Part shown: piece by piece, positions 28,547 to 32,819 of the stretch
How positions within the stretch are numbered: position 1 is the stretch's first letter
How the letters are laid out: each line of letters opens with the position of its first letter
Assembly: GCF_014200595.1 (NCBI RefSeq)
Contig: NZ_JACHCG010000005.1
Span: 310,001 to 374,000 of the forward strand
Length of the DNA stretch: 64,000 nucleotides
Source: Pedobacter cryoconitis
Lineage (GTDB): Bacteria > Bacteroidota > Bacteroidia > Sphingobacteriales > Sphingobacteriaceae
Direction of reading: 5' to 3'
Translations under genes and position numbers: made by a program
Notes under the pieces: model-generated
What the model saw: only the letters and a program-made list of their open reading frames with translations
What the model was told of the DNA's origin: nothing
Databases searched by the model: none

Positions 28547-29107
28547 ATGGCAAAAGCATCAGAAGTGAAAAGCGGTAATATTCTTCGTTTCAATGGAGAA
28601 TTAATAGTAGTAGAAGAGTTTCTACACCGGACTCCTGGAAATTTAAGAGCTTTTTACCAGGCAAGAATGAGGAACATTAAAAGCGGCAAATTAGTCGAGT
28701 ATAGGTTCCGCACAGATGAAGAGGTAACGATTTGCCGGGTAGAGACAAATGATTATCAATATTTATACGAAGATGGAGAATTCCTCGTTGTAATGGATAA
28801 CAGTTCTTTTGAACAATTTAACATCCCAAAATCATTATTTGGGGATCAGATTAAATTCTTAAAAGAAGGCATGAATGTTGTAATAGCATTCGAGAGTGAA
28901 GAGCCGATTTCGGCACAAACTCCCCAGCATGTTGAGCTGGAAGTTACCTACACAGAGCCCGCTGTTAAAGGGGACACTTCAACAAGTGCATTGAAATATG
29001 CGACCGTTGGAGCAGATGTTGAAATAAAAGTGCCGATGTTTATCAATCAAGGCGATAAGGTTAAGGTTGATACACGTACAGGTGAATATATAGAAAGAGT
29101 AAAATAA
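28547..29107 (+). CDS. efp: Translation elongation factor P
   Basis: The 186-residue protein has the three beta domains of EF-P, with the N-terminal SEVKSGNILRFNGELIVVEEF and the C-terminal GDKVKVDTRTGEYIERVK signatures. EF-P helps ribosomes through polyproline stretches. At the tip of the loop where E. coli has the modified Lys34 (PGKGQAF), this protein reads PGNLRAF, so Asn32 takes the tip position and no lysine is present. It has its own promoter and a strong terminator. Confidence 0.95.
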   Translation: MAKASEVKSGNILRFNGELIVVEEFLHRTPGNLRAFYQARMRNIKSGKLVEYRFRTDEEVTICRVETNDYQYLYEDGEFLVVMDNSSFEQFNIPKSLFGDQIKFLKEGMNVVIAFESEEPISAQTPQHVELEVTYTEPAVKGDTSTSALKYATVGADVEIKVPMFINQGDKVKVDTRTGEYIERVK

Positions 29108-29144
29108 GAATTTTCATAGTTTAGTTTTAGGTTTAGGTTGATTT

Positions 29145-29179
29145 TGGCTTCGGAGTGGTTCCCGAAGCCATATTTTTTT
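29145..29179 (+). terminator. Terminator of efp
   Basis: A 9-bp stem TGGCTTCGG (29145-29153) / CCGAAGCCA (29162-29170) with an 8-base loop is followed by a run of seven T. It lies 38 bases after the efp stop. Confidence 0.88.
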
Positions 29180-29217
29180 AGAGACTTTTTTATTCAACCT
29201 GATCAGGTTCATTTCGT

Positions 29218-29225
29218 GTAAATAG
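29218..29225 (+). repeat. Target site duplication, left copy
   Basis: GTAAATAG directly abuts the left terminal inverted repeat. The same eight bases in the same orientation abut the right terminal repeat at 30054-30061. Confidence 0.85.
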
Positions 29226-29246
29226 GGATCAAGTCATAAACTTGTG
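29226..29246 (+). repeat. Left terminal inverted repeat of the 828-bp element
   Basis: 21 bases, starting GGATC and ending TTGTG, that match the right end in inverted orientation without mismatch. Identity stops just inside this block. Confidence 0.87.
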
Positions 29247-29429
29247 TAGCAAGCTCTTTTTTCAGGATAAATTTTGACACGCTAAACAGAAAGTCTTTGA
29301 TTTCACGGATGCTGTTACGCCTCTGGCAGTTGTGCTGAAAGCTTTCAATTTGCATGGGAATGACTCAGTCGAAACAAGGCCGGGCTGTTAGTAAATAAAT
29401 TCAAAATAGCTTAATAATAGATCTATATC

Positions 29430-29451
29430 GGCCGGGTACTGGTCGGGTACT
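29430..29451 (+). repeat. 11-bp tandem duplication inside the element
   Basis: GGCCGGGTACT is followed directly by GGTCGGGTACT, differing at one base. It borders the left arm of the symmetric hairpin. Confidence 0.7.
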
Positions 29452-29597
29452 GCCTGAGTAGTCGTTAGGGTAAGAGCAATGCTAAAGTAACGTGAGAGCA
29501 TGGCAAGTCCAAGTCAAAACAACTAGTTGAAATCAATTGGACTTGCCATGCTTACAGCCCGTTTACAACCTGGTGTCACCCCGACCACCACTCAGGC
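29452..29597. repeat. 146-bp near-symmetric inverted repeat (hairpin) inside the element
   Basis: Two 61-base arms (29452-29512 and 29537-29597) pair around a 24-base loop. The inner 16 bp are perfect (AGCATGGCAAGTCCAA / TTGGACTTGCCATGCT), as are the outer 8 bp (GCCTGAGT / ACTCAGGC). The 37 bases between have equal length on both sides but match at only about 16 positions, so no indels separate the arms. The loop centre carries the 10-bp palindrome CAACTAGTTG (29520-29529). This could form a cruciform in DNA or a long hairpin in RNA. Confidence 0.8.
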
Positions 29598-29659
29598 ACA
29601 ACTAAACCATAACTAGTTGAAGATTAATGAAATTATAATTTTCCCTTTGACTAACCCAT

Positions 29660-29709
29660 GGACAACTGCGGACAATTGCAGACAGCTGCGGACAATTAAG
29701 GACATTTTT
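29660..29709 (+). repeat. Five 10-bp tandem repeats inside the element
   Basis: Units read GGACAACTGC, GGACAATTGC, AGACAGCTGC, GGACAATTAA and GGACATTTTT, so the first three are close copies and the last two degenerate at their ends. The period of 10 is near one helical turn, as in iterated protein binding sites. Confidence 0.8.
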
Positions 29710-29770
29710 TACGCATCAGGATAATCTTTAACGCCAATAGCCTACATTGGTGGAAAGGCATTTATTTATT

Positions 29771-29956
29771 ATGGGAAGTTTAACGGGTAAATTTTCAAAG
29801 GGAATCCTGGGCGATTTCATTTTTAAAGCAGTAGTTTGGAGTACAAGTTGTTTCGAAAGTTTTGTAAGGGGCACAATGAAACAATCAATCGAAACCCAAA
29901 GGCATCAAAGAACTTTTGTAAAAGGAGCAAGCCTGAAAAAATCGGGAAGTAATTAG
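29771..29956 (+). CDS. Short hypothetical protein inside the element (possibly a remnant)
   Basis: The frame from the ATG at 29771 encodes 61 residues beginning MGSLTGKFSKGILGDFIFK and ending ASLKKSGSN. It has no signal peptide or membrane segment. The start with its KGILGDFIFK stretch resembles from memory the N terminus of small Bacteroidota proteins with an ILGxxVFK-type start, so it may be a truncated copy of such a gene. An in-frame TTG at 29747 also exists. Expression is uncertain, and no transposase motif is visible. Confidence 0.35.
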   Translation: MGSLTGKFSKGILGDFIFKAVVWSTSCFESFVRGTMKQSIETQRHQRTFVKGASLKKSGSN

Positions 29957-30032
29957 CTTATTAAAGAATCGTAACCATCTGCTTTGAACTAAGAAAATAT
30001 CAAAACCAAAACTTGAAATTTAATCACTAATC

Positions 30033-30053
30033 CACAAGTTTATGACTTGATCC
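30033..30053 (-). repeat. Right terminal inverted repeat of the 828-bp element
   Basis: 21 bases, starting CACAAG and ending GATCC, that are the exact reverse complement of 29226-29246. The 8-bp target duplication follows directly. Confidence 0.87.
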
Positions 30054-30061
30054 GTAAATAG
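30054..30061 (+). repeat. Target site duplication, right copy
   Basis: GTAAATAG is identical to 29218-29225 and directly abuts the right end of the element. Confidence 0.85.
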
Positions 30062-30186
30062 CAGAAAAATTTATTGGCAATGGAGTGTTTTAAATGCTTT
30101 TAGTAATTAGGAAATATGTTTACTTATATAATTAATTATATAGTTAAACGACTTATAATTAACTTTATACCTTCTGATTGTGGATA

Positions 30187-31626
30187 ATGATAAAAACGGA
30201 TCGGTATTTCATTCAACTGGTGATGATAGCTTTTATGCTATTCGCTGTAAATTCTGTATTTGCGCAAACTGATGGAAAGATTAAGGCTAATTGGCAAAAT
30301 CTGGATTTGAAAACAGACAGTGTTTTTGGGATCAGCATGGAAAAGGCTTATACACAGTTGCTAAGTGGAAAGAAAGCGACACCTGTCATTGTTGCAGTAA
30401 TTGATGGTGGGGTTGATATTAATCACGAAGACCTCAAATCTGTCATTTGGACGAATCTTAAGGAGATCCCAGGCAATGGTATAGATGATGATAAAAATGG
30501 TTTTATAGATGATATTCATGGCTGGAATTTCTATAGTGCAGCCGTAGGAGAAGATACTCAGGCTGAAATGTTATCTGTACACAACAAGATAGAAAAAACG
30601 AAAAAGGATCAGGAAATATTAAATCATATGTTGCAGAAAATGGGCAAGCCTATTCCAACTGTTGATGATTTTAAGAATTATGTACCCGGCAGCCCAGAGG
30701 AACTTAAAATGCAGACGGCAATGATTACTGGCTTGAAAATTTATCCGGATTTTGTTTCCAAAGGAAGGGTCAAACTGAAAAAAGCGGCTGATTTCTATAA
30801 GATGCAGTTGGCATATTATGAAAAAAAGGATTATGACCCAATACCGGGTGGACCTTCTAGTATACATGGTACTCATGTGGCAGGTATTATTGCTGCAGTT
30901 CGTAATAATAATGTTGGTACTAACGGAGTCGCAGATCAGGTGAAATTGATGGTTATTCGTGCAACTCCTGGTATCGACCCGTTCAAAGAGACGGCGGATT
31001 CAGCAACTATCTACGCATTAGGCGGAACTGAAGAGAATAAGAATATTAAGGCAATAGCTGACGCTATTCATTATGCAGCTGATAATGGAGCAAAGGTAAT
31101 CAATATGAGTTTTGGAATACCGTTAGCCACAAGACCTGCTACAATCTATGAAGCAATAAGATATGCCGTTAGCAAAGATATTTTGATTGTTCATGCCGCT
31201 GGTAATACCGGGGAAAATCTGGATAAGATGGATAATCTTATCCCTGATAGGAAAACTTTGGAAGGTCAGGTTATAGCTCCTTACTGGATAGAAGTTGGAG
31301 CCTCAGATTCTAAAAATGATCAAAAATTAGCTACTGAATTTTCCAATTATGGTAAAAATAGCGTAGATGTTTATGCGCCGGGGGTTGATATTACTTCTAC
31401 GGTACTTCGTTCTACCTATGATGAAAATAGTGGTACTAGTATGGCTGCTCCTGTAGTTACGGGGCTCGCTGCGGTCATCATAGAGTACTATCCGAAATTA
31501 ACAGCAGTACAAGTTAAAGAAGTTATCATGAAGTCGGTTATTCATGAAGATGTTTTGAAAGATAAGTGTGTTTCTGGTGGAGTGGTAAACGCATATAATG
31601 CGTTATCGTATATTGACAAATACTAA
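30187..31626 (+). CDS. Secreted subtilisin-like serine protease (S8 family)
   Basis: The 479-residue protein starts with a signal peptide (LVMIAFMLFAVNSVFAQ). It carries the catalytic triad of subtilases: Asp in VAVIDGGVDINHEDL, His in SIHGTHVAGIIAA and Ser in GTSMAAPVVTGLAA. The oxyanion Asn is in VHAAGNTGEN. About 140 residues separate Asp and His, far more than in classical subtilisins, and contain a Lys-rich helical insertion; related Bacteroidota S8 proteins show the same. No type IX sorting domain follows the catalytic domain. I chose the ATG at 30187 over the TTG at 30178 because it gives a normal signal peptide. The promoter region lies just outside the 828-bp element. Confidence 0.92.
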   Translation: MIKTDRYFIQLVMIAFMLFAVNSVFAQTDGKIKANWQNLDLKTDSVFGISMEKAYTQLLSGKKATPVIVAVIDGGVDINHEDLKSVIWTNLKEIPGNGIDDDKNGFIDDIHGWNFYSAAVGEDTQAEMLSVHNKIEKTKKDQEILNHMLQKMGKPIPTVDDFKNYVPGSPEELKMQTAMITGLKIYPDFVSKGRVKLKKAADFYKMQLAYYEKKDYDPIPGGPSSIHGTHVAGIIAAVRNNNVGTNGVADQVKLMVIRATPGIDPFKETADSATIYALGGTEENKNIKAIADAIHYAADNGAKVINMSFGIPLATRPATIYEAIRYAVSKDILIVHAAGNTGENLDKMDNLIPDRKTLEGQVIAPYWIEVGASDSKNDQKLATEFSNYGKNSVDVYAPGVDITSTVLRSTYDENSGTSMAAPVVTGLAAVIIEYYPKLTAVQVKEVIMKSVIHEDVLKDKCVSGGVVNAYNALSYIDKY

Positions 31627-31630
31627 TTAA

Positions 31631-31682
31631 TTAACAAGGTACATACAAGTTTAAACCTTTAAACTTGTATGTACCTTGTTAA
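31631..31682. terminator. Unusually long perfect hairpin after the subtilase gene
   Basis: Two 25-base arms (31631-31655 and 31658-31682, starting TTAACAAGGTACATACAAG) are perfect inverted repeats separated by only two bases. GTTTTGTTT follows on the plus strand. It begins 4 bases after the subtilase stop and probably serves as its terminator, although the stem is far longer than the 8-12 bp seen at the other terminators here. Confidence 0.65.
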
Positions 31683-31736
31683 GTTTTGTTTGAAATTCTT
31701 GCATGTAATTTTTGGATTCATCCTCTCCATAGTTCA

Positions 31737-31988
31737 CTAAGATTTGCCATAAACATACTTTTTAATTCCTGGATTTGAATCAGGCTGAGCTACTAACGTT
31801 ATATAAAGATTTGCAATATAATTTCTCAGGTTACTAGATAAGATAATGGGGACTGGCCCGGTGCCTGCAGCATAAATAGCACATACTCTTACTCCGTTTT
31901 TACAACTTGGTGGCAAACTTGCTATATAATAGGAAGGAGGGATTAGTGGATCGCCAACTCCGTTGTAGGCATACCATCTTCTAGCCAT
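31737..31988 (-). CDS. Small uncharacterised protein (MARRWYAYNG type)
   Basis: The 83-residue protein begins MARRWYAYNGVGDPLIPPSY and contains the cysteine pair SCKNGVRVCAIYA. It lacks a signal peptide or membrane segment. The start and the CxxGxxxCAIYA core resemble small orphan proteins I associate with Sphingobacteriaceae, but no function is known to me. It is a single gene, convergent with the subtilase gene and separated from it by the long hairpin. The ordinary start codon and protein-like composition favour a real gene. Confidence 0.55.
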   Translation of the reverse strand: MARRWYAYNGVGDPLIPPSYYIASLPPSCKNGVRVCAIYAAGTGPVPIILSSNLRNYIANLYITLVAQPDSNPGIKKYVYGKS

Positions 31989-32252
31989 AATAAATGATTC
32001 TTTTGTCTATCAAAAAGAAATCAAAAAACTTTAATTCATGCCTACTCTTTTCATGGTTTTCGGCTTCCCCCATTGATTGATTTAAATCATAGTGTTAATT
32101 TACAAAGATCTGCTCTGTTTTTTATGCCAAAAGTCCCCAAATATGACTACTTGTAGTGGTATGAATTCAGCGTAAATGAATAGAAAATTTATCAATGAGT
32201 AAGCTGGGTCCAGACAAGATTTCTAACTTGCAGAACATAGTGCTATTAAAAG

Positions 32253-32819
32253 ATGAATAAAACAGAAATCAGGAAACAGGAAGCGAAAAGAAGAAAAGAA
32301 CTTAACCCGGAGCAAGTTTATGCGCTGAGTGGAAAATTACTCGAACAATTTGCTACGCTTGACCTGAGTGCTGTAAAAACACTTCATATCTTCCTTCCAA
32401 TTGCTGAAAAGAATGAACCGGATACCTTTTTATTTATTGAATGGCTTAAAACGCATCATCCGCAGTTAAAAATAATTGTACCCCGTGCAGATTTTAAAAC
32501 TTCTTTAATGACGCATCATCATTATAAGGGAGAACAAGAGCTTTTAAAGAGTTCTTTTAATATTCTGGAGCCAGTTAACGAAGAAGAGTATCAGGGAGAA
32601 ATAGACCTTGTTATTGTGCCTTTACTGGCATTTGATGATCGGGGTTACCGGGTCGGATATGGCAAAGGATTCTATGACCGGTTTTTAGAGGGACGAAATA
32701 CCCTGAAAGTGGGTTTATCTTTTTTCAAAAGCGTGGGCATCATTGCTGATACCCACGAAAATGATATTCGCCTTAATCTTTGTATAACACCAGATCAGGT
32801 AATCTATTTTAAGGATTAA
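32253..32819 (+). CDS. 5-formyltetrahydrofolate cyclo-ligase
   Basis: The 188-residue protein starts with KTEIRKQEAKRRKELNPEQ and has the family signature PLLAFDDRGYRVGYGKGFYDRFL near residue 130. The enzyme uses ATP to convert 5-formyl-THF to 5,10-methenyl-THF in the cytoplasm. The length is typical (180-200 residues). It is monocistronic, convergent with the xth gene. Confidence 0.92.
   Translation: MNKTEIRKQEAKRRKELNPEQVYALSGKLLEQFATLDLSAVKTLHIFLPIAEKNEPDTFLFIEWLKTHHPQLKIIVPRADFKTSLMTHHHYKGEQELLKSSFNILEPVNEEEYQGEIDLVIVPLLAFDDRGYRVGYGKGFYDRFLEGRNTLKVGLSFFKSVGIIADTHENDIRLNLCITPDQVIYFKD

Follow-up and report, generated by a model that had tools for sequence, protein, structure and literature searches.

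What is the 828-bp stretch that separates efp from a subtilase gene in Pedobacter cryoconitis, and how did it come to lie there? An earlier note on the window (the whole 64,000-nucleotide stretch of DNA analysed) had described a transposon-like, MITE-like element without a transposase, mobilised in trans and recently inserted. Judging from comparisons of its sequence, we are highly confident that it is a non-autonomous, internally deleted, chimeric derivative of insertion sequences (IS) of the ISAon1 group, in the ISL3 family.

The element and its place behind efp

The outline of the element is confirmed by sequence comparison. It occupies 29226-30053, 828 bp as the earlier note had it, and 29226-29246 agrees with the reverse complement of 30033-30053 at 21/21 bp, the match ending at once inward. 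The 8-bp GTAAATAG abuts both ends exactly, at 29218-29225 and 30054-30061, and the duplication match goes no further. A simple estimate gives ~3e-5 for perfect 21-bp inverted pairs no more than 1 kb apart anywhere in 64 kb, with the target site duplication (TSD) not yet counted, so that the terminal inverted repeats (TIRs) are far beyond chance. The features, with the basis of each in brackets, are as follows.

29218-29225, no strand: left copy of the TSD, GTAAATAG (sequence)
29226-30053, plus strand: non-autonomous element in full, of the short, 828-bp sub-type (sequence, comparison of copies)
29226-29246, plus strand: left TIR, GGATCAAGTCATAAACTTGTG (identical to inverted 30033-30053)
29226-29261, minus strand: end of an ‘A-type’ ISAon1-group IS, as in genome G106, inner limit approximate (77.6% to IS_G106, first 49 bp)
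29260-29418, minus strand: 3'-terminal remnant of a ‘B-type’ ISAon1-group transposase gene, spread over frames (71.6% to L072; tblastn with the L071 transposase)
29430-29451, plus strand: two 11-bp repeats of GGCCGGGTACT type (copy number differs between family members)
29497-29552, plus strand: long imperfect palindrome, or hairpin (retained in most copies)
29661-29700, plus strand: GACAACTGCG-type repeats at 10-bp spacing (sequence)
29771-29956, plus strand: short frame from ATG, judged non-coding (neutral substitutions; very variable frame length across copies)
29938-29947, no strand: scar of a ~98-bp deletion between 10-bp AAAATCAGGA-type repeats, the mark of the short sub-type (comparison of copies)
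29939-30053, minus strand: beginning of the first transposase frame, from the ISAon1 N-terminal region and with one internal stop, together with the A-type right end (76.9% to IS_G106)
30033-30053, minus strand: right TIR (identical to the left TIR inverted)
30054-30061, no strand: right copy of the TSD, GTAAATAG (sequence)

Possible starts of the subtilase gene, a TTG at 30178 and an ATG at 30187, lie ~125-134 bp beyond the element. The insertion is shared by genome G068, down to the GTAAATAG duplication; the element there is 97.2% identical, and the compared flanks are 96.3% (1117 bp) and 98.7% (557 bp) identical to those in the window. The insertion thus predates the split of these two strains, and the recent date proposed for it is not supported. 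The counterpart that the earlier note proposed to look for, an empty site with one GTAAATAG, was not found at this locus with efp sought in 11 genomes and read in 6. In G154, G023 and G085, the gene for 5-formyltetrahydrofolate cyclo-ligase comes next after efp; there is no element within 1.5 kb, no subtilase in the locus and no GTAAATAG in the 260 bases that follow efp. Near efp in G018 and G022 there are other copies with other flanks, the G022 copy with TSD TTTTTGAC and the G018 copy without a matching duplication at its edges. The interval from efp to the cyclo-ligase gene covers 28547-32819 in the window, and its element and subtilase gene are also present in G068. An Rfam DUF805b RNA motif (32039-32073, minus strand, 37.6 bits, gathering 35.6) lies between the subtilase region and the cyclo-ligase gene.

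A multicopy family and its traces of transposition

Further copies with the same ends, which the earlier note suggested looking for, turned up in quantity. Whole or partial copies lie in at least 22 places of the 6.35-Mb genome that holds the window, from 37 match rows among the best 40 of 50 candidates; some places are split over two rows, some rows come from the internal palindrome, and one extra 33-base match is left out of the count. The same genome has 27 matches to the TIR at three mismatches or fewer, and 0 to a reversed control pattern. Among 145 genomes of the genus, the TIR is present at two mismatches or fewer in 16, some DNA match to a 926-bp copy in 20, and the element itself (at least 89% identity over 800 bp) in 5, all of the Pedobacter cryoconitis group; the two DNA-match counts come from the best three candidates per genome. 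The TIR counts agree with five hosts, at 20 to 31 ends each versus 1 to 6 in the other eleven genomes. The five hosts, we infer, are the window's own genome, G068 (P. cryoconitis DSM 14825), G022 (S3M1), G018 (another P. cryoconitis) and G154 (Pedobacter sp. WC2423). A first survey had matched 7 of 59 genomes, and 0 of the 23 outside Pedobacter. Searches of plasmid and phage collections with the 926-bp copy gave no match.

The loci read in the five host genomes include 37 complete copies, 752-961 bp in span, at 33 sites, with only part of the copies fetched from G018, G022, G068 and G154. The sites are set apart by an 80% flank-similarity rule, and since L012 and L045 look like one region by eye, the count may be one too high. 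The 8-bp TSD is exact at 12/33 sites and has at most one mismatch at 16/33. At the other 17/33 there are two or more mismatches, from which we conclude that many copies are old or rearranged. An exact TSD is also present at two shorter copies outside this count, L004 and, at efp in G022, one of 419 bp.

The empty-site test that found no counterpart behind efp succeeded at another copy. In G022, the L048 element lies between two TTGGTTGT; a single TTGGTTGT stands where the same flanks are joined in G154 (L245) and in the window's own genome (L247). We regard L048 against L245 and L247 as the decisive occupied and empty pair. The same site is without the element in G018, G068 and G023 (L246, L248, L249), with letters changed or gaps. 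Three other sites tried for an empty counterpart gave none that is clean: at L003 the flank is itself repeated, at L005 the other side differs, and L180 is empty but eroded in the window's own genome, G018 and G154. Together, the family's duplications and this one pair support the origin by transposition that had been read from the single copy.

A different account makes homologous recombination or duplication of the surrounding DNA the main route by which the copies multiplied. The 17/33 complete sites without a clean TSD and the repeated flank of L003 are what such an account would draw on, but exact 8-bp TSDs of different sequence at 12/33 sites and the clean occupied and empty pair argue against it; at sites with duplications it is, on the sequences compared, refuted, and for the family as a whole we give it almost no credence.

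Two regions deserve a separate description. L180 (G068:C16:36863-37423 and 37527) is a copy with an exact TSD, CAATTTAA; G068 has a second efp-like gene, and the copy lies ~100 bp downstream from it. Near one conserved intergenic stretch lie L005 (G000:C4), the partial copy L238 (G018) and L202 (G154), whose TSDs and flanks on the other side differ; there is no copy in that region in G068 or G023. This suggests that the intergenic region is a variable hot spot.

A probable chimeric build from related insertion sequences

A longer relative that encodes a transposase and has nearly the same ends, another of the checks proposed earlier, was found in G106, a related Pedobacter. It is a 1432-bp IS (L053) with the TSD GGGATTTG on both sides, and its TIRs differ from the window TIR by two mismatches on the left (19/21) and one on the right (20/21). 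Its first frame matches NF049916, the ISAon1 family transposase N-terminal region (148.7 bits, cut-off 55), and its second matches NF049917, the ISAon1 family transposase (450.2 bits, cut-off 250), and Pfam DDE_Tnp_ISL3. G062 has a 1442-bp relative (L056) with TSD CCAATTCT and a damaged transposase in two overlapping pieces; the right TIR has 20/21 letters of the window TIR in this element as in that of G106. In G085, the 3' end of a transposase adjoins a TIR with 0 mismatches to that of the window (L060).

The element retains pieces of both transposase frames of this group. The right 115 bp (29939-30053) align with IS_G106 at 76.9% identity (117 positions, E 5.6e-16), and their translation, FKADGYDSLIS*LLPDF, has 12/17 residues identical to FMQDGYHTLISLLLPDF by tblastn with the first frame of L053. 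Element positions 34-193 in the window copy correspond to a B-type transposase 3' end, with 70-72% identity to L072, L073 and L075, and 76% to L071 over positions 87-193; the family consensus reaches 74-75% to all four in this region. A tblastn search with the L071 transposase gives a best E of 8.5e-6 for the window copy and 1.4e-7 for the consensus, the match being split over frames. Long copies have, at consensus 726-749, a stretch like the B-type end with 22/24 letters shared with L072 and L073 (E 5.6e-4, a short match), followed at consensus ~738-800 by A-type transposase codons. The window copy has lost this B-type end stretch, so the case for nesting draws mainly on the other copies and on L222. 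At this last locus, in G068, ~110 bp separate a B-type transposase end and its terminal sequence from an A-type TIR with one mismatch, and TATGCTTAAAA stands at both sides. The 828-bp form is without ~98 bp between two AAAATCAGGA-type repeats, and it recurs in several copies. For the middle stretch (consensus ~220-726), one 40-base match was found outside the five hosts in 145 genus genomes, among the best three candidates per genome.

We propose that an A-type derivative was invaded by a second ISAon1 element, of B-type, and afterwards lost the DNA between two TATGCTTAAAA repeats, which would have left the chimeric left end. A form of ~926 bp would have given rise to the 828-bp form by a further deletion between the 10-bp repeats. 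A present or past ISAon1-group copy elsewhere would supply the DDE transposase, which would act on the 21-bp ends and insert the element at cuts staggered by 8 bp.

Which enzyme could have done so? The window's own genome has one ISAon1-group transposase, with ends that match those of the element at 15/21, and all its TIR matches within two mismatches are copies of the family. G018 and G154 hold open ISAon1-group copies, of which the kind with GGATCAATACC ends matches the element at 17/21 (16 at one G154 end). The copy-rich G022 has no NF049917 match, in an assembly where several contig ends fall in copies and repeats may be missing. In G154, a 962-bp unit (L064) has one end of the element type, an outer right end of the GGATCAATACC type and the exact TSD GTGCAAGG on both sides; both kinds of end have therefore probably worked together once. 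The earlier note was probably right in supposing mobilisation in trans. The element has lost its own transposase, and most likely that of a related IS mobilised it.

Other records of such ends are listed here for completeness. L219 (G018:C1:4410084-4411059) is an ISAon1-group IS whose TSD, CAAGTCAT, exactly matches a portion of the TIR of the family, and it may thus have landed in a family TIR. By reading, no transposase was found among frames of at least 80 aa at the lone TIRs L035 (G023) and L039 (G017) or at the partial match L034 (G017), and these three loci were set aside. Short contigs with a single TIR, among them G147, were read in part. Exact 21-letter ends, with A or T at one position, occur in records of Flavobacterium, Gillisia, Gelidibacter, Dyadobacter, Arcticibacter and Arenibacter (50 stretches, L095-L144, consensus comparison at the DNA level), which suggests a wide distribution across Bacteroidota of ISAon1-group elements with ends of this kind.

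Might the interior be the reason why the element is kept? Frames of at least 40 aa in the element are all short: 29747-29956 (plus strand), 29728-29874 (minus strand) and 29209-29355 (minus strand, ending outside the element). The first and last of these have no match in Pfam and NCBIfam at E up to 1. In a mobile insertion cassette, the frame starting MGSLTGKFSKGILG would be a working passenger gene for whose sake the element is kept. The start of this frame is recognisable in 24/24 aligned copies, some copies have a 77-aa frame, and a protein search with it returns at least 40 proteins. Yet its substitutions are near neutral: over the first 102 bases of 65 copies, 55/78 distinct changes are non-synonymous, 0.705 versus 0.745 expected, and substituted cells number 69, 105 and 62 by codon position. 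Its length varies from 6 to 86 aa, and the longer variants end in transposase DNA read backwards. The names given to these proteins are ‘hypothetical protein’ and ‘uncharacterized protein’; any organism shown is Pedobacter, and the hits may be other copies of the element. We consider a passenger gene highly improbable. A first impression that the frame begins like a DUF6266-type protein was also rejected, with no Pfam or NCBIfam match and a substitution test that speaks against coding.

Alternatively, the family could have begun by transposition but be retained as a structured RNA or regulatory repeat that serves the host. The palindrome (29497-29552) keeps its fold somewhat better than expected under random change (mean -19.1 versus -15.4 for random changes of the consensus, sd 5.1, 65 copies), and many copies lie near terminator-like hairpins. 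Against this, 1128/1323 paired cells are still paired (15% lost) with most changes in the 3' arm, a consensus fold of the wider region is weak, Rfam has no match in the element, and only 2/33 sites, under the 80% flank-similarity grouping, unite copies from more than one genome. A host function of this kind seems highly improbable.

Placement near terminators and comparison with known elements

Complete copies lie mostly between genes, 29/33 sites being outside frames of at least 90 aa, and often a short way downstream of a terminator-like hairpin. With thresholds chosen by us and one 64-kb window as the directional control, a terminator-like hairpin 15-80 bp away points at the element at 14/33 complete sites versus 8.3% of 5344 intergenic positions of the window, and points away from it at 7/33 versus 13.3% of the same positions. 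Over distinct ends, partial copies included, a hairpin within 80 bp points at the element at 31/106 and away at 12/106. Our first predictor overlooked hairpins separated by a few bases from the following T-run, and its excess was weaker, 16/32 sites (one of the 33 dropped for a short flank) versus 97/300 intergenic positions of the window (p 0.037) and 103/360 flank positions (p 0.012). The corrected predictor places a terminator within 80 bp at 15/33 sites versus 23.2% in the window (p 0.004) and 10.8% of flank intergenic positions (p 5e-7). An inverted repeat has the empty site of the L048 insertion as its loop, and in several strains copies with differing flanks occupy two particular intergenic regions. 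A preference of the mobilising ISAon1-group transposase for hairpin-forming DNA, above all for the ends of transcription terminators, would amount to a built-in choice of a ‘safe harbour’; we hold such a preference to be unlikely. Insertions that harm genes are lost, which could by itself yield a terminator-side bias, and it is simpler to read the pattern as selection against harmful insertions. Placement chosen by the enzyme would make this a useful system of target choice, whereas placement that reflects survival would be nothing unusual.

These copies make up a non-autonomous family that is abundant in the Pedobacter cryoconitis group and tied to a named transposase group. Some of the ‘hypothetical proteins’ of Pedobacter are probably pieces of a non-coding transposon. 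The nested arrangement in a relative indicates how a MITE-like element longer than usual could arise from two related IS. As far as our searches go, the family is new within the open literature searched, where ISAon1 is not named and with ISfinder outside the comparison; its kind is already known. The comparison to MITEs made by the earlier note holds in part: the family has many copies, TIRs matching those of an IS and no coding capacity, but 828 bp, or 752 to 961 bp over complete copies, exceeds the strict size of ~30-300 bp given in PMC4133298. MITEAba12, as presented in PMC6382973, is likewise multicopy and non-coding with terminal repeats common with an IS family, and 40% of its copies have TSDs, compared with exact ones at 12/33 sites here. 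It differs in size, 111-114 bp versus 752-961 bp, and in having a named co-resident helper, whereas no close helper was found in the window's own genome.

The element also shares features with two other kinds of non-autonomous element. Mobile insertion cassettes have IS ends around a core without a transposase. Our element is like them in both respects and unlike them in its interior, where near-neutral substitutions and variable frames leave no passenger gene under selection. Such cassettes are named in PMC4133298 and PMC3913671. The Tn3-derived TIMEs described in PMC4133298 are similarly mosaic non-autonomous elements moved in trans, and differ in their transposase family and in a duplication of 5-6 bp versus 8 bp here. 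A table in PMC4133298 also lists ISPpu12a, of the ISL3 family, with an 8-bp duplication. Close to the element as well are the insertion sequences of the ISAon1 group of the ISL3 family (NF049916/NF049917; PF01610). Unlike them, the element has no transposase, a ~500-bp interior without known relatives and a chimeric left end; it is like them in its terminal inverted repeats, in its 8-bp duplications and in the remnants of both transposase frames that it carries.
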